Source: Fimbriimonadaceae bacterium | Lineage (GTDB): Bacteria > Armatimonadota > Fimbriimonadia > Fimbriimonadales > Fimbriimonadaceae | Assembly: GCA_024710805.1 (NCBI GenBank) | Contig: JANJUB010000048.1 | Span: forward strand, 1 to 53,347 | Reading direction: 5' to 3' | Length of the DNA: 53,347 bases | In this document: piece after piece, positions 21,528 to 26,256 of the stretch | Position numbering within the stretch: position 1 is the first letter of the stretch | How the letters are laid out: every line of letters begins with the position of its first letter | Position numbers and translations under genes: made by a program | Notes under the pieces: model-generated | Databases searched by the model: none | Told to the model about the DNA's origin: nothing | Seen by the model: only the letters and a program-made list of their open reading frames with translations

Positions 21528-22818
21528 GGCTAACGTCAACCTCAAAATCCGTGCCGCCCGGTGCTCCTATCTTAGCCACGATTTCGTCTTGGAGGGCCCG
21601 AATTTGGGTCGCGGAAGCCACAAAGTTGTTGAAAACAAGTGCTATTGCCAGGGATTCTCCTGCCGGGTCTGTGGAAAGGCCGCTGAGCGATGAGACCGAG
21701 CTCAGAGAACCTGTTTTGCCTCGGAAGTTGACCCCAGCGAGGCGGTTGGTCAGCGTTCCCTCGCCCGGCCCAGCCAGCCAGGATCGCCACTCCGGCCAGG
21801 TCCGATCGGCAAACAACAGCAGCTGGATCAAAACTCGTGGAGTAACCAGGTTGTGCCGAGACAGGCCGCTGCCGTCGATCGGGCGAAGATCGTCGGGATC
21901 GATGCCTGCGGCCGCCACGAGTCGCTTCTCCATGCGGTCGGCGGCCTCGGCGTAGGGCTCGTTGGGGTCCGCAAAGGGAGCCTCCGCGCACGCAGCGTTC
22001 AGCATGAGGCACTCGGCCAAGAAGTTGTCACTCTTAACCAGACACTCACGAACGATCTCGCTCAGCGGCGGAGCTTCCAGAACCACATCCGGCGAGCGAT
22101 TCGGCACGGCCGCCACGGGAGCCGTGAACTTGGTGCCCAGAGCAAGCGCGGCGGCTCGTTCGGGGTCAGGAACAGCCAAGGTATCAAGGCGCTGGGTCTC
22201 CTTGGGAAGAATCGACGGCACCCAAGCCGTGCCGCGTATAGGGTCGTAACGAAGCTTACGGCCCGGCTGAGTTGACACACCATAGTTCGCCGGGCGGAAC
22301 ACCGGCTTGCCACCTTGGTTCCACAGCTCAAAGCCGCCTCGATCCACCGCAAAGGCGGAAGGCTGGGCGGCGTAACGATTTGGAAGGTCGTCGTGCTCCC
22401 AAGTCGGGGGAATTCCGGCACGGTAGGGTGCCTTCAAGTACAGCTTGGTTCCGGGGGGAACCTGAAGCAGTTCACGTGCGGTGACGAGGTCCGCGTAGGT
22501 CAGCATCGGATGAGCGACCGCTTCGACGTGGATCATATCGTGCGTCTTCCACAGCCGCACCTGGCCGCGGTATTCGGGCCCGAGCACCAACAGTGCATAG
22601 ATGCACGACAAGATCTTCTGGTTGCTGGCGGGCACCATTCGGCGGTCAGCATTGCGGGAGTACCGCAAGTTGCCTGCGGCATCGGAGATGGCGGCTCCGA
22701 CGGTCGCGCCACGAGTCACGGGGCGATCGAGATAGGCGTCGAGGTCTTGGGCACCCGATGGCGCGGCCGAGAGAGCAACGACCAGAACCAGCCACTTCGG
22801 GCTACAGAACTTCGGCAT
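21289..22818 (-). CDS. dacB: D-alanyl-D-alanine carboxypeptidase/endopeptidase, PBP4 type (S13)
   Basis: This 509-residue periplasmic peptidoglycan hydrolase of the DacB/PBP4 family has a signal peptide (KWLVLVVALSAAPSGAQ) and the three penicillin-binding motifs in order: S-x-x-K in MVPASNQKILS, S-x-N as KSDNFLAE, and KTG in FRGKTGSL. PBP4 proteins cut peptide crosslinks or terminal D-Ala in the periplasm. The start (22818) overlaps the ATPase stop. The normal fold should end near GAPGGTDFE, but the frame stays open for ~80 more codons that are an out-of-frame reading of the DUF5658 gene. This may be a lost stop or a sequencing indel; TGA and TAG lie in the next frame at that point. Confidence 0.9.
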   Translation of the reverse strand: MPKFCSPKWLVLVVALSAAPSGAQDLDAYLDRPVTRGATVGAAISDAAGNLRYSRNADRRMVPASNQKILSCIYALLVLGPEYRGQVRLWKTHDMIHVEAVAHPMLTYADLVTARELLQVPPGTKLYLKAPYRAGIPPTWEHDDLPNRYAAQPSAFAVDRGGFELWNQGGKPVFRPANYGVSTQPGRKLRYDPIRGTAWVPSILPKETQRLDTLAVPDPERAAALALGTKFTAPVAAVPNRSPDVVLEAPPLSEIVRECLVKSDNFLAECLMLNAACAEAPFADPNEPYAEAADRMEKRLVAAAGIDPDDLRPIDGSGLSRHNLVTPRVLIQLLLFADRTWPEWRSWLAGPGEGTLTNRLAGVNFRGKTGSLSSVSSLSGLSTDPAGESLAIALVFNNFVASATQIRALQDEIVAKIGAPGGTDFEVDVSHDSERSHPHASDLVVHRNRFDRFGGDGRVTRPGSDRRAQSAHACVHRAERVALRFGEGANAGRGVAGPCLVCAVQSAFR

Positions 22819-23542
22819 CGCCGTGCATATAGGCATCGAGCACCTCATCCGGCTTCCCTTCTCGTTCAATAACGCCGTGATGCAGCCAAACGCACCGGTC
22901 GGCCAACATCCGAGCCTGATCGAGATTGTGGGACACAAACAGAATGGATCCGCCGTTCGCGCGGAACTCGTTGATCCGAGTGAAGCACTTGGCTTCAAAC
23001 GCATAGTCTCCGACCGCAAGGACTTCATCGACGATCAGGAGCTCCGCATCCACATGCACCGCAACGGCAAACCCCAGCCGCGCAAGCATTCCGCTGGAAT
23101 AGGAACGCACCGGCGCGTCGATATGGCGGTGGAGTTCGGCAAAGTCGATGATCGCATCGGTTCGCTCGAGGATCTGCTTGCGCGTTAGGCCAAGGATCAC
23201 GCCATTGAAAAAGACATTTTCGCGGCCCGACAGGTCGGGGTGGAAGCCGGCCCCCAGTTCGAGCAGCGGCGCAACGCGGCCGTTGACCTGAATCTGCCCC
23301 GAGGTCGGCTTGTACACCCGGGCGATCAGCGCGAGCAACGTGCTCTTCCCCGCCCCGTTTCGACCCACGAGCGCGACCGTCTCGCCGCGTTTGATTTCGA
23401 GGTCGATGCCACGAAGCACCTCCAGCCGTTCGATCCTTCGCTGTCGCCACCAAAGCATGGCGGTCTTCAGCGAACCCGATCCGCTGTGGCTCAGCAGGAA
23501 CGTCTTGTGGAGGTCGCGAATCGAGACGATGGAGTCGCTCAT
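22802..23542 (-). CDS. O-antigen/teichoic-acid-type ABC exporter ATPase
   Basis: This 246-residue ATP-binding subunit of a polysaccharide or polyol exporter (Wzt/TagH type) has Walker A GRNGAGKST, signature YSSGM (LSGGQ replacement typical of this subfamily), and Walker B LLIVDEVLAVGD with the switch His in VSHNLD. It ends soon after the ATPase core (AYMHGDAEVL), so the C-terminal carbohydrate-binding domain of long Wzt proteins is absent. ATG 23542 overlaps the permease stop (ATGA), and its own stop overlaps the dacB start. The exported substrate is unknown; no glycosyltransferases are nearby. Confidence 0.92.
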   Translation of the reverse strand: MSDSIVSIRDLHKTFLLSHSGSGSLKTAMLWWRQRRIERLEVLRGIDLEIKRGETVALVGRNGAGKSTLLALIARVYKPTSGQIQVNGRVAPLLELGAGFHPDLSGRENVFFNGVILGLTRKQILERTDAIIDFAELHRHIDAPVRSYSSGMLARLGFAVAVHVDAELLIVDEVLAVGDYAFEAKCFTRINEFRANGGSILFVSHNLDQARMLADRCVWLHHGVIEREGKPDEVLDAYMHGDAEVL

Positions 23543-24399
23543 GGCCGCTCGACGAACCTCCATTTCATTCGATTGAACACGTGGTAACCAAGAACGAGAA
23601 TCCCGAATGACATCAGTGCGGCGATGCCGAACAGCCCCCAATCCAAGTCGAGCGGCTGAAGCGTTTCACCGCCCATTCGAACCGGCGTCGGCGCGAGGAG
23701 CACCTTTTTGTAGGTGGTGCAAAGCGTCGCCATCGGGTTCAGGTGATACAGGATGTAGAGCAGGTCGCCGCGCGGGCCCATCTGAGACGTCGCATGGCGG
23801 ACGTTCTCGCTGAAGTACATCACCGGTGTGAGGAAGAACATGATGTACAGCACCGCGCCCATGATGTACTTCACGTCTTCGTAGAACGTGTTCAGTGCGC
23901 TGATGATGAGACTGAGCCCGGTCGCCAACGCCAAGTTCACGAGCAACACCAGCGGCAGGATCACGACGGTCGGCCGAATCGGAAACTCACCCGGTGTTCG
24001 CAGCCAAACCAGAATCGAGATCACCACAAACACGCCGAGCGCAAGCACCAGATGGATGAAGTTGGCGAAGATCTGGGCGAGAGGCAGCACCTCGCGCGGG
24101 AAATACACCTTGCGCACCATCGGCAGCGACACGAGGATCGACTGCGCCGAGTCCATCAGTGCGAACTGGAAGAACGCGTAGGGGATGTAGGCGGCAAGCA
24201 CGTAGAGCGTATAGCTGCCCACGCCTTGACTCAGGAAGTACTTGAAGACGATCGACATCACCAAAGCGGTGACGAGGGGATTGACAAGCGACCAGAGAAA
24301 TCCCAGCGCGCTGTTCTTGTAGCGGATGCGCAGTTCCCGCTCGGTGAGGCTGATCAATAACTCGCGGAACCGCCACAGCTCCTTGAGTTCTGCCCACAT
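23539..24399 (-). CDS. ABC-2-type polysaccharide exporter permease
   Basis: This 286-residue inner-membrane protein of the Wzm/TagG family has the N-terminal amphipathic segment before the membrane (LTERELRIRYKNSALGFLWSLVNPL, a family hallmark) and six hydrophobic segments. It also has the FLTPVMYFSE and LYHLNPMATLCTTYKKVLL elements typical of O-antigen exporters. ATG 24399 was preferred over an upstream in-frame start that overlaps the FKBP gene. It is coupled to the ATPase by ATGA overlap. Confidence 0.93.
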   Translation of the reverse strand: MWAELKELWRFRELLISLTERELRIRYKNSALGFLWSLVNPLVTALVMSIVFKYFLSQGVGSYTLYVLAAYIPYAFFQFALMDSAQSILVSLPMVRKVYFPREVLPLAQIFANFIHLVLALGVFVVISILVWLRTPGEFPIRPTVVILPLVLLVNLALATGLSLIISALNTFYEDVKYIMGAVLYIMFFLTPVMYFSENVRHATSQMGPRGDLLYILYHLNPMATLCTTYKKVLLAPTPVRMGGETLQPLDLDWGLFGIAALMSFGILVLGYHVFNRMKWRFVERP

Positions 24400-24409
24400 G
24401 ACGCCGATT

Positions 24410-24799
24410 CTACCTACCGGCAACCTGAATCAGATTCACCGTGAGCTGGAGGGTGGCGTTGGGCGGCACGATCGGCACCAGCCCGGTCTGGCCAAAGGCC
24501 CGCTCCGGTGGAAAGGCGGCGAGCCGGATTCCGCCGGTCCGCATCCCAACCACGGCGCGGCTGAGCAGATCATACGGCTCGGCCGTGACCACGAACGTAA
24601 ACGGCAACCCACGCTTGCGCGAGTTCGCGAGTTCGTTTCCCTCGGGGGTCGCCGCGAGGAAGTGGATGGTGACCCGGTCGCCGATTACAACGGCATTGCC
24701 CGAACCGACACGCAACTCCTGCCAGCCCGGCTCGAGGTTGGGCACATTGCCCCACACCGAGAGGCCGATGCCGAGGCTAACCAGCGCGTCTTTGAACAT
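24410..24799 (-). CDS. FKBP-type peptidyl-prolyl isomerase
   Basis: This 129-residue single-domain FKBP has recognisable segments: V-x-IGDRVTIHFLAATPEG, PFTFVV, LLSRAVVGMRTGGIRLAAFPPERAFG, and the final beta strand LQLTVNLIQV. The N-terminus (MFKDALVSLGIGLSVWG) is mildly hydrophobic and could direct export. These enzymes catalyse proline isomerisation in protein folding. It lies 10 bp before the exporter permease and 50 bp after the 207-residue membrane protein, so it is probably part of the riboswitch-led operon. Confidence 0.85.
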   Translation of the reverse strand: MFKDALVSLGIGLSVWGNVPNLEPGWQELRVGSGNAVVIGDRVTIHFLAATPEGNELANSRKRGLPFTFVVTAEPYDLLSRAVVGMRTGGIRLAAFPPERAFGQTGLVPIVPPNATLQLTVNLIQVAGR

Positions 24800-24849: not shown

Positions 24850-25473
24850 TTAGCTCTCGAAGTAACCGACCGAGCGGTAGCTGAGCCCCAGTCGAGTTGC
24901 GGCATGACGCAGGGCTTCTAGCTGGGTGTCGAGATTGCTGCGATCGCTGCTGCCCAGACTGCGGCGGGCGGCGAGCAAGTGGTCGGTTCCGCATCGGATC
25001 AAGTAGGTCTCGGCGGCCGAGGCGTTGCCGGTAAGGCTCAGGGCCTCGCTGATCTGCTCGCGCAAAACGCGGTCGTCCAGCGAAGCCGAAACGAGGATCG
25101 AGCCAGCGTAGCCAACCAGCATGCTGCCGAACATGATGCCGAAGCCCATCCAGAACCGGTCCACAAAGGACACTTGCCCCAGCAACACGATGCAGAATCC
25201 GATGAAGGTCGTAACCAGCCACGGGGCCCAAACGTAGGCGGGGCGCATGAAAACGCCTCGCAATCTCATGCAGAACGCAAGCGCGAGACCGAAGTCGATT
25301 TCGGCATCGGTCAGGTCGGTCAGTGCCTTCTCGGAAACGCGGACCGTCCACCCCGAGACGCGGATGCGCAGCGCTTCTCGCCCCCGCGAAGAAACCACCC
25401 GCACTCGCGGGATAGAGGTTTCGAGTCGGCGGGCGAGGTGCTCGACACGTTGGACGAATTCTTGCTCGGTCAT
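24850..25473 (-). CDS. Membrane protein, first gene after the riboswitch
   Basis: This 207-residue protein has two hydrophobic segments around residues 80-125 (YVWAPWLVTTFIGFCIVLLG and GFGIMFGSMLVGYAGSIL). The segment before them, VSEKALTDLTDAEIDFGLALAF, resembles the helix that carries HExxH in M48 peptidases, but no HExxH is present, so any such relationship is speculative and activity unlikely. ATG 25473 follows AAGAAGA. It lies ~180 bp after the terminator of the c-di-AMP riboswitch, with only repeats between, and is the most direct target of that switch. Its function is unknown. Confidence 0.7.
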   Translation of the reverse strand: MTEQEFVQRVEHLARRLETSIPRVRVVSSRGREALRIRVSGWTVRVSEKALTDLTDAEIDFGLALAFCMRLRGVFMRPAYVWAPWLVTTFIGFCIVLLGQVSFVDRFWMGFGIMFGSMLVGYAGSILVSASLDDRVLREQISEALSLTGNASAAETYLIRCGTDHLLAARRSLGSSDRSNLDTQLEALRHAATRLGLSYRSVGYFES

Positions 25474-25580
25474 GAGTCTTCTTGACTTTATGATCGGCAC
25501 GCGAGGTGGTGGATTGCAGGACGTCGCCCGATAGCTCGTGGTTGTACGGGGCTCGGGGGCTCGGGGCTCGCAGGGTTGGA

Positions 25581-25633
25581 CATCCGACATCCGACATCCG
25601 ACACGCCAACAAGCCAACACGCCAACTTGCCCA
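25581..25633. repeat. Short tandem repeats: (CATCCGA)x3 then 8-mers
   Basis: CATCCGA is repeated three times at 25581-25601. Four imperfect 8-mers of the type CACGCCAA follow (25602-25633). The heptamer is the reverse complement of TCGGATG found at 28381-28401. This is the non-coding stretch between the riboswitch terminator and the 207-residue gene. Confidence 0.8.
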
Positions 25634-25650
25634 TCCCACCACAAAGCAAG

Positions 25651-25676
25651 AGGGCCCTCCGTTTCCGAAGGGCCCT
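25651..25676 (-). terminator. Terminator of the c-di-AMP riboswitch
   Basis: AGGGCCCT ... AGGGCCCT is self-complementary and forms an 8-bp GC-rich stem with a 10-nt loop. On the minus strand it is followed by CTTGCTTTG, a modest U-tract. It lies between aptamer and first gene, as expected for transcription-termination control. Confidence 0.75.
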
Positions 25677-25696
25677 GCTCAACAGGAGGTGCTCAC

Positions 25697-25718
25697 CCAA
25701 CCTCAAGCACGAGGTTGG
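25697..25718 (-). promoter_or_regulatory. Expression-platform hairpin between aptamer and terminator
   Basis: The perfect stem CCAACCTC/GAGGTTGG has a 6-nt loop. It lies 20 nt before the terminator stem and may be part of the expression platform or a passive hairpin. Confidence 0.55.
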
Positions 25719-25739
25719 TTTGGCCGAAAGTGCGTGTGT

Positions 25740-25922
25740 CGCAACCGACGACATCGCTGCCGCGGTATCGACTCCCGCTTCGCCTACGGAGTTAGCTGTC
25801 GGGTTCGGGCCAAGAGTTACCCTAGGGGACCACGATCGGCCTCCATTCACCCCAAGTTACGGTTCCCCCGCTCCCCGGTTGCCCGGAGATTAGACGTGGC
25901 TTTCGCCATATCTTGAGACGAA
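25740..25922 (-). promoter_or_regulatory. c-di-AMP riboswitch (ydaO/yuaA motif)
   Basis: Read on the minus strand, the conserved blocks of this class appear in order: GGGGGAACCG, CTTGGGGTGAATGG, TAGGGTAACTCTTGG, then GCCCGAACCCGACAGCTAAC and TCCGTAGGCG. The block CCCGAA-CCGACAGCTAAC-CGTA-GGCG is the signature of the ydaO aptamer, and spacing is also right. A GNRA hairpin (TGGCGAAAGCCA) and a CTCCGGG/CCGGGGAG stem precede it. In known cases c-di-AMP binding turns off cell-wall, osmolyte or potassium genes. Here the switch precedes a membrane protein, FKBP, polysaccharide exporter and PBP4 operon. Exact aptamer ends are approximate. Confidence 0.92.
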
Positions 25923-25998: not shown

Positions 25999-26256
25999 AT
26001 GAAGGCAGATATCCATCCCGCGAATCATCCCGTGCTGTTCATCGATGGCGACCACGAGTGGGTCGGCGTTTCGACGCTCACGTCGAACGAAACGAAGGTC
26101 ATCGAAGGCATCACGCACTATGTGGTCCCGGTGGACATCAGCGCGTTCAGCCATCCGTTCTACACGGGCACGAAGCGTCTCGTCGATACCGCCGGCCGCG
26201 TCGAGAAGTTCATGCGCCGCTACGGCAACCAGATGCAGAACCAGGGCAAGAAGTAA
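25999..26256 (+). CDS. rpmE2: Ribosomal protein bL31, type B (zinc-free)
   Basis: This 85-residue protein of the 50S subunit begins MKADIHPANHPVLFIDG. The core STLTSNETKV, the FSHPFYTGTKRLVDTAGRVEKFMRRYG block, and the complete lack of cysteine identify the zinc-independent B form. Such forms can replace zinc-type bL31 in zinc limitation, though here it may be the only copy. An AGGAGG ribosome site lies at 25983-25988, so this gene has a conventional leader, with a CATAAT -10 at 25964-25969. It is divergent from the riboswitch. Confidence 0.96.
   Translation: MKADIHPANHPVLFIDGDHEWVGVSTLTSNETKVIEGITHYVVPVDISAFSHPFYTGTKRLVDTAGRVEKFMRRYGNQMQNQGKK

Follow-up and report, generated by a model that had tools for sequence, protein, structure and literature searches.

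A c-di-AMP aptamer in Fimbriimonadaceae that appears to belong to a self-contained RNA rather than to the leader of an envelope operon

Background

c-di-AMP riboswitches have so far been described as leaders of genes. The known ones of the ydaO type are off-switches, and in Actinobacteria many of them sit ahead of cell-wall genes (PMC9960051). With other ligands, riboswitches also occur on RNAs that are not simple leaders. SreA of Listeria monocytogenes binds SAM and controls its downstream operon in cis but also acts in trans, and Rli55 is a non-coding RNA controlled by a B12 riboswitch, in which the ligand halts transcription before the effector domain (PMC8079631). In the literature that we searched, which was largely open-access, we found no c-di-AMP counterpart of these RNAs and nothing relevant on trans-acting c-di-AMP small RNAs, on riboswitches in organisms with names beginning Armatimonad, on c-di-AMP in Fimbriimonas, or on c-di-AMP riboswitches and histidine biosynthesis.

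Does a c-di-AMP aptamer necessarily control the gene that follows it? The question is raised by the window analyzed here, a stretch of 53,347 nucleotides from a Fimbriimonadaceae bacterium (contig JANJUB010000048.1). A preliminary description of its minus strand had proposed a c-di-AMP riboswitch with terminator, leading an envelope operon and having a target different from the usual potassium-transport or Rpf type. If the RNA were instead a gene of its own, the sensing of second messengers would reach beyond gene leaders to an RNA that stands by itself and may act in trans, and caution would be due in assigning riboswitch targets by the next gene alone.

Results

The window carries a complete c-di-AMP aptamer

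By class, the element in the window is confirmed as a genuine c-di-AMP aptamer on covariance grounds. Rfam cmscan of the window matched RF00379 on the minus strand at 25906-25767 with 77.2 bits, well above the gathering cut-off of 38 (E = 2.9e-16), and the match covers the full length of the model (1-134 of 134). When the whole source genome was scanned, four RF00379 matches were returned, the window locus among them (E = 4.2e-18). All ydaO/yuaA signature blocks named in the preliminary description were found in the order claimed there, and so was the GC-rich terminator behind them. The description had also suggested c-di-AMP signalling in this lineage, which is borne out by the aptamers and by a CdaA-CdaR locus: the genome has one diadenylate cyclase, CdaA (CdaA_N, 3.1e-09; DAC, 1.7e-38), which has its membrane domain and is followed by a YbbR/CdaR gene. 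A DAC gene is present in 60 of the 61 genomes searched. The features of the locus are as follows.

25999..26256, plus strand: divergent upstream gene, ribosomal protein L31 type B by sequence reading (ORF)
25897..25908, minus strand: P0, 5' cap hairpin TGGC-GAAA-GCCA just ahead of the aptamer (hairpin scan)
25767..25906, minus strand: c-di-AMP (ydaO/yuaA) riboswitch aptamer, RF00379 (Rfam covariance match, 77.2 bits)
25744..25766, minus strand: hairpin accgcggcagcgatgtcgtcggt, 3' of the aptamer (minimum-energy fold of the post-aptamer segment)
25643..25718, minus strand: 3' domain, homologous to the post-aptamer domain of genus g19 (covariance model R1)
25697..25718, minus strand: hairpin ccaacctcgtgcttgaggttgg (fold), inside the R1 match
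25681..25693, minus strand: hairpin AGCA-CCUCC-UGUU, exposing an anti-Shine-Dalgarno sequence (CCTCCT conservation, stem pairing)
25642..25676, minus strand: intrinsic terminator, with hairpin agggcccttcGGAAACggagggccct at 25676-25651 (GC-rich, -24 to -26 kcal/mol) and T-rich tail at 25650-25642
24850..25473, minus strand: P0001, 207 aa, genus-specific, probably outside the unit of the RNA (ORF, no Pfam match)
24410..24799, minus strand: FKBP-type peptidyl-prolyl isomerase, a neighbour (PF00254, 4.8e-13)
23539..24423, minus strand: ABC-2 permease, probably for polysaccharide export, a neighbour (PF01061, 8.2e-13)
22802..23542, minus strand: ABC transporter ATPase, a neighbour (PF00005, 1e-21)

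The region of the CCUCC hairpin (GCACCTCCTGTTGAG) occurs once in the genome, at the window locus, and CCUCC hairpin and terminator are 98% identical between the window copy and that of its congener.

A long RNA form occurs at most once per genome

We searched RF00379 in 61 genomes and then in 85 genomes of the family (that of the window and 84 related ones), extracted the sequence flanking 135 further matches, in which genes were called by means of a custom hexamer model. The loci fell into three architectures, with class labels assigned by hand and gene calls that are our own. In class I (63 loci, a residual class with a few odd members), a strong Shine-Dalgarno sequence and a small ORF mostly come no more than 100 nt after the aptamer, and a promoter-like -10 mostly sits right where the aptamer begins. 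Such an arrangement resembles cis control of translation. Class III, to which the window belongs (50 loci), is composed of a 5' hairpin, the aptamer, 60-190 nt of further sequence, CACCUCCUG and a terminator. Class II (15 loci) is a different long RNA that replaces class III; it has a terminator in most cases and often precedes an MFS transporter. A purine-rich GGAGGAGG often follows the aptamer in class II (L055, L068, L098, L103 and L194), with about 150-300 nt more after it.

A long form was present in 65 of the 74 aptamer-bearing genomes of the family (50 class III and 15 class II), and 9 had neither. It never occurs more than once per genome, and classes II and III never co-occur. Family f5 has a related long form in all eight of its genomes (8/8); at L065, L079, L090 and L097 it precedes a gene for a SurA/PpiC-type isomerase, with a MazG-like gene next in three.

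Each of the other three aptamers of the source genome (L037, L038 and L036 in G000) stands 21-47 nt ahead of a small ORF (97-117 aa) that has no Pfam match and, in most cases, a strong Shine-Dalgarno sequence. Most class I aptamers in the relatives are also followed by small ORFs of this kind, helix-rich in appearance. In three genomes outside the family (L073, L094 and L112) the aptamer lies 80-111 nt before genes that read as asparagine-synthase-like or dehydrogenase-like.

Conservation extends beyond the aptamer to the terminator

Class III differs from class I at both ends. A strong P0 hairpin was found at 38 of the 50 class III loci, with 26 different stem-loop sequences, compared to 6 of 63 in class I; a terminator of at most -15 kcal/mol within 330 nt at 41/50 compared to 11/63; and both together at 30/50 compared to 1/63.

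The segment in between is also conserved. CCTCC is present in about 45 of the 50 class III loci, and CCTCCT is invariant in 22/22 aligned loci, which were picked for having the element. The stem that carries it is moderately supported by the alignment: 85.7% paired against 80.3% in shuffles (0/500), with 82/500 for pairs with compensatory change. In a post-aptamer alignment of eight loci of genus g19, 19 of 53 pairs showed compensatory change, compared to a shuffle mean of 10.2 (0/500). There, 91.7% of cells were paired compared to 35-49% with slid partners, a lenient control, as the alignment had also supplied the structure.

From the last 156 positions of these eight loci, excluding the aptamer and the genus of the window, we built covariance model R1. 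Searched with E up to 1, R1 gave 19 matches in 569 kb and 15 in 225 kb. Compared by hand for strand and position, the matches fell at class III loci, apart from weak ones at three f5 loci and at one class II locus; no class I locus in either set was matched. On the window copy R1 scored 36 bits (E = 1.6e-06, 25643-25718), which was also its sole match over the whole source genome (E = 9.1e-06). Nine class III genomes searched whole gave one match each in seven and none in G018 and G032, so that the model misses some copies; scores were weak or absent at several distant copies of the window type. Three whole genomes lacking a class III copy gave no match.

Rfam returned no known family for the post-aptamer region of three loci, with one sub-threshold ctRNA match over the CCUCC and terminator end. 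Two further ideas on this region were discarded: a hidden small ORF (MTLAFVV, in two genomes) lacked conservation by eye, and potential pairing between the CCUCC element and GGGGUG in the core of the aptamer was not enriched over shuffles (mean z +0.58).

The genes downstream vary and a switch at the terminator is not apparent

One alternative, the view of the preliminary description, is a classical cis riboswitch, in which c-di-AMP would promote termination at 25651 and lower transcription of P0001, FKBP and the ABC export genes. Aptamer, terminator and same-strand gene do stand in the usual order, and the known members of the class are off-switches, many of the actinobacterial ones preceding cell-wall genes (PMC9960051). 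However, P0001 turned up in just two of 41 genomes, G000 and G001, and is thus confined to the genus of the window; TAAAGT lies 11 nt ahead of its ATG. The membrane-protein gene expected after the terminator is there as a same-strand gene, with a membrane nature that comes from reading a hydrophobic stretch and no Pfam family; its interpretation as a degenerate M48 peptidase also received no support from Pfam. The spacer between terminator and P0001 contains imprecise short repeats (ttggcgtgttggcttg, gtcggatgtcggatgtcggatg; 25578-25625).

At about 23 of the 50 class III loci, hisB comes next. At 16 it is another gene on the same strand, at 9 one on the opposite strand, and 2 loci have no next gene. 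These counts include L157 and L193, assigned to hisB on sequence reading; automated gene calls gave 21, 17, 10 and 2. Outside the hisB loci, the ratio of same to opposite strand (16:9) is indistinguishable from chance, with shared ancestry uncorrected. At L049, L166 and L181 a convergent gene, in two cases with a Pfam family, ends 11, 18 and 5 nt past the terminator and thus leaves no room for a target in cis. No same-strand target gene of the kind that marks a cis attenuator is conserved downstream of class III.

Most downstream genes also have a promoter-like motif of their own at the start codon. In 16 of 37 (43%), TAnnnT is found 4-14 nt ahead of the start; across all genes of the loci it occurs in 32% of those preceded by a gap of at least 80 nt compared to 8% inside operons, most often at a distance of 6 nt. 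With TATAAn added, a variant admitted only after misses were seen, the figure is 24/37, compared to 0-4/37 at other offsets. The RNA itself seems to be preceded by a distinct arrangement: GGAAC near -43 with TAnnnT near -19 was found upstream of 20/50 class III loci and 1/63 class I loci, and class I has TAnnnT at -1 to -5. The window copy has GGAAC at -37 and lacks a clear TAnnnT (-10) at the position used in the family, a point against an autonomous RNA and in favor of the cis riboswitch.

A terminator that switches would be expected to have a competing partner. We found no consistent antiterminator for its 5' arm (mean z +0.18 over 37 loci, against shuffles that preserve base composition alone), and upstream segments able to pair with the arm occur at L083, L086 and L182 (z about -3 to -4). 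Identity falls past the terminator from 68-93% to 33-38% in L060/L178, L153/L154, L156/L166 and L166/L173, L163/L164 having been left out because the terminator finder cut this pair badly; there is no such drop in the close pair L083/L185 or between the window and its congener (82% in the spacer vs 87% in the mid region).

Overall, the family-wide conservation of the RNA beside unrelated or opposite-strand genes speaks against its leading an envelope operon, as does the lack of an antiterminator trend, and we regard the cis riboswitch as rather unlikely. The proposal of an unusual target holds only insofar as a target in cis may be absent altogether.

A contig titled Methanoregulaceae archaeon (JADZEW010000026.1) encodes P0001 at 97% identity. 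The title is probably a binning or naming error, since the rRNA of the window matches the bacterial LSU model.

hisB is a frequent neighbour but not a constant one

A role in cis is possible at the copies adjacent to hisB, given that hisB adjoins about 23 of the 50. This would fit a dual RNA of the SreA type, for which the SAM riboswitch of Listeria is a precedent (PMC8079631): terminated transcripts would act in trans and read-through would control any gene downstream, ancestrally hisB. On the other hand, the architecture is kept where hisB lies elsewhere. The gene is on another contig in G000, G001, G010, G014, G065, G068, G072-G076, G078 and others, and it was not detected in G018, G023 and G093, although the RNA is present. 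Moreover, most hisB copies that do follow the RNA have promoter-like motifs between terminator and ATG. We consider the dual RNA unlikely. The narrower idea of a hisB control or new his regulon was rejected: many genomes retain the RNA with hisB placed elsewhere or undetected, and the gene often comes with a promoter motif of its own.

At L047, L060, L070, L077, L091 and other loci, hisB-hisH-hisA, identified by Pfam IGPD, GATase and His_biosynth, lies 180-380 nt after the aptamer, sometimes with a small membrane-protein gene. At L048, L050 and L072 (G003, G021 and G012) the HisB-like proteins have changes in the usual metal-binding histidines (DDHFAVEG, DDFHLVQD and DEHHTFEE).

Discussion

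Comparison among relatives shows, at the level of sequence, an aptamer, a co-varying 3' domain and a terminator, in a long form found at most once per genome and independent of any particular downstream gene. We propose, with a probability of roughly 0.58, that the locus is an autonomous gene for a small RNA that senses c-di-AMP, and not the leader of the neighbouring envelope genes. Its 5' half appears to be a capped aptamer and its 3' half a structured domain with the CCUCC hairpin and an apparently constitutive terminator.

Such an RNA would be transcribed as one unit of about 270 nt. Binding of c-di-AMP may alter its stability or how far the CCUCC loop is exposed, and the loop may in turn block the Shine-Dalgarno sequence of those mRNAs, a minority, in which it is strong. 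Among the 466 genes called with confidence, just 40 have GGAGG no more than 18 nt from the start, so that the loop could be selective. Targets might include the small-protein mRNAs led by the other c-di-AMP aptamers of the same genomes. Action in trans through an anti-Shine-Dalgarno loop is perhaps what the RNA does. The full version of this proposal, a dedicated family-wide non-coding RNA whose ydaO aptamer senses c-di-AMP and whose CCUCC loop regulates Shine-Dalgarno-led mRNAs in trans, in one regulon with the aptamer-led small-protein genes, is tentative.

The autonomous RNA could also work through a protein. The 3' domain would then bind and sequester it, as Rli55 does with EutV (PMC8079631), and the CCUCC loop would be a protein site rather than a pairing seed. 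The large co-varying 3' domain with its several conserved hairpins is compatible with this variant. We hold it to be quite improbable, as the invariant loop is an exact anti-Shine-Dalgarno sequence and no candidate protein was seen.

Compared to known systems, the autonomous RNA that we favor shares aptamer sequence and structure with the ydaO/yuaA members of RF00379, such as those of B. subtilis kimA (ydaO) and C. glutamicum nlpC. These are gene leaders, whereas the window RNA runs on into a conserved, co-varying 3' domain, and the genes beyond its end differ among relatives, with no potassium, osmolyte or cell-wall-hydrolase gene directly after it. Like SreA/SreB, it would join a ligand aptamer to a terminated transcript potentially able to affect translation in trans; unlike SreA, which binds SAM and controls genes in cis, its ligand class is c-di-AMP and control in cis is unsupported. 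With Rli55 it shares the joining of a riboswitch to a non-coding RNA domain. In Rli55 the ligand-dependent stop precedes the effector domain, whereas the only consistent terminator of the window RNA follows the 3' domain.
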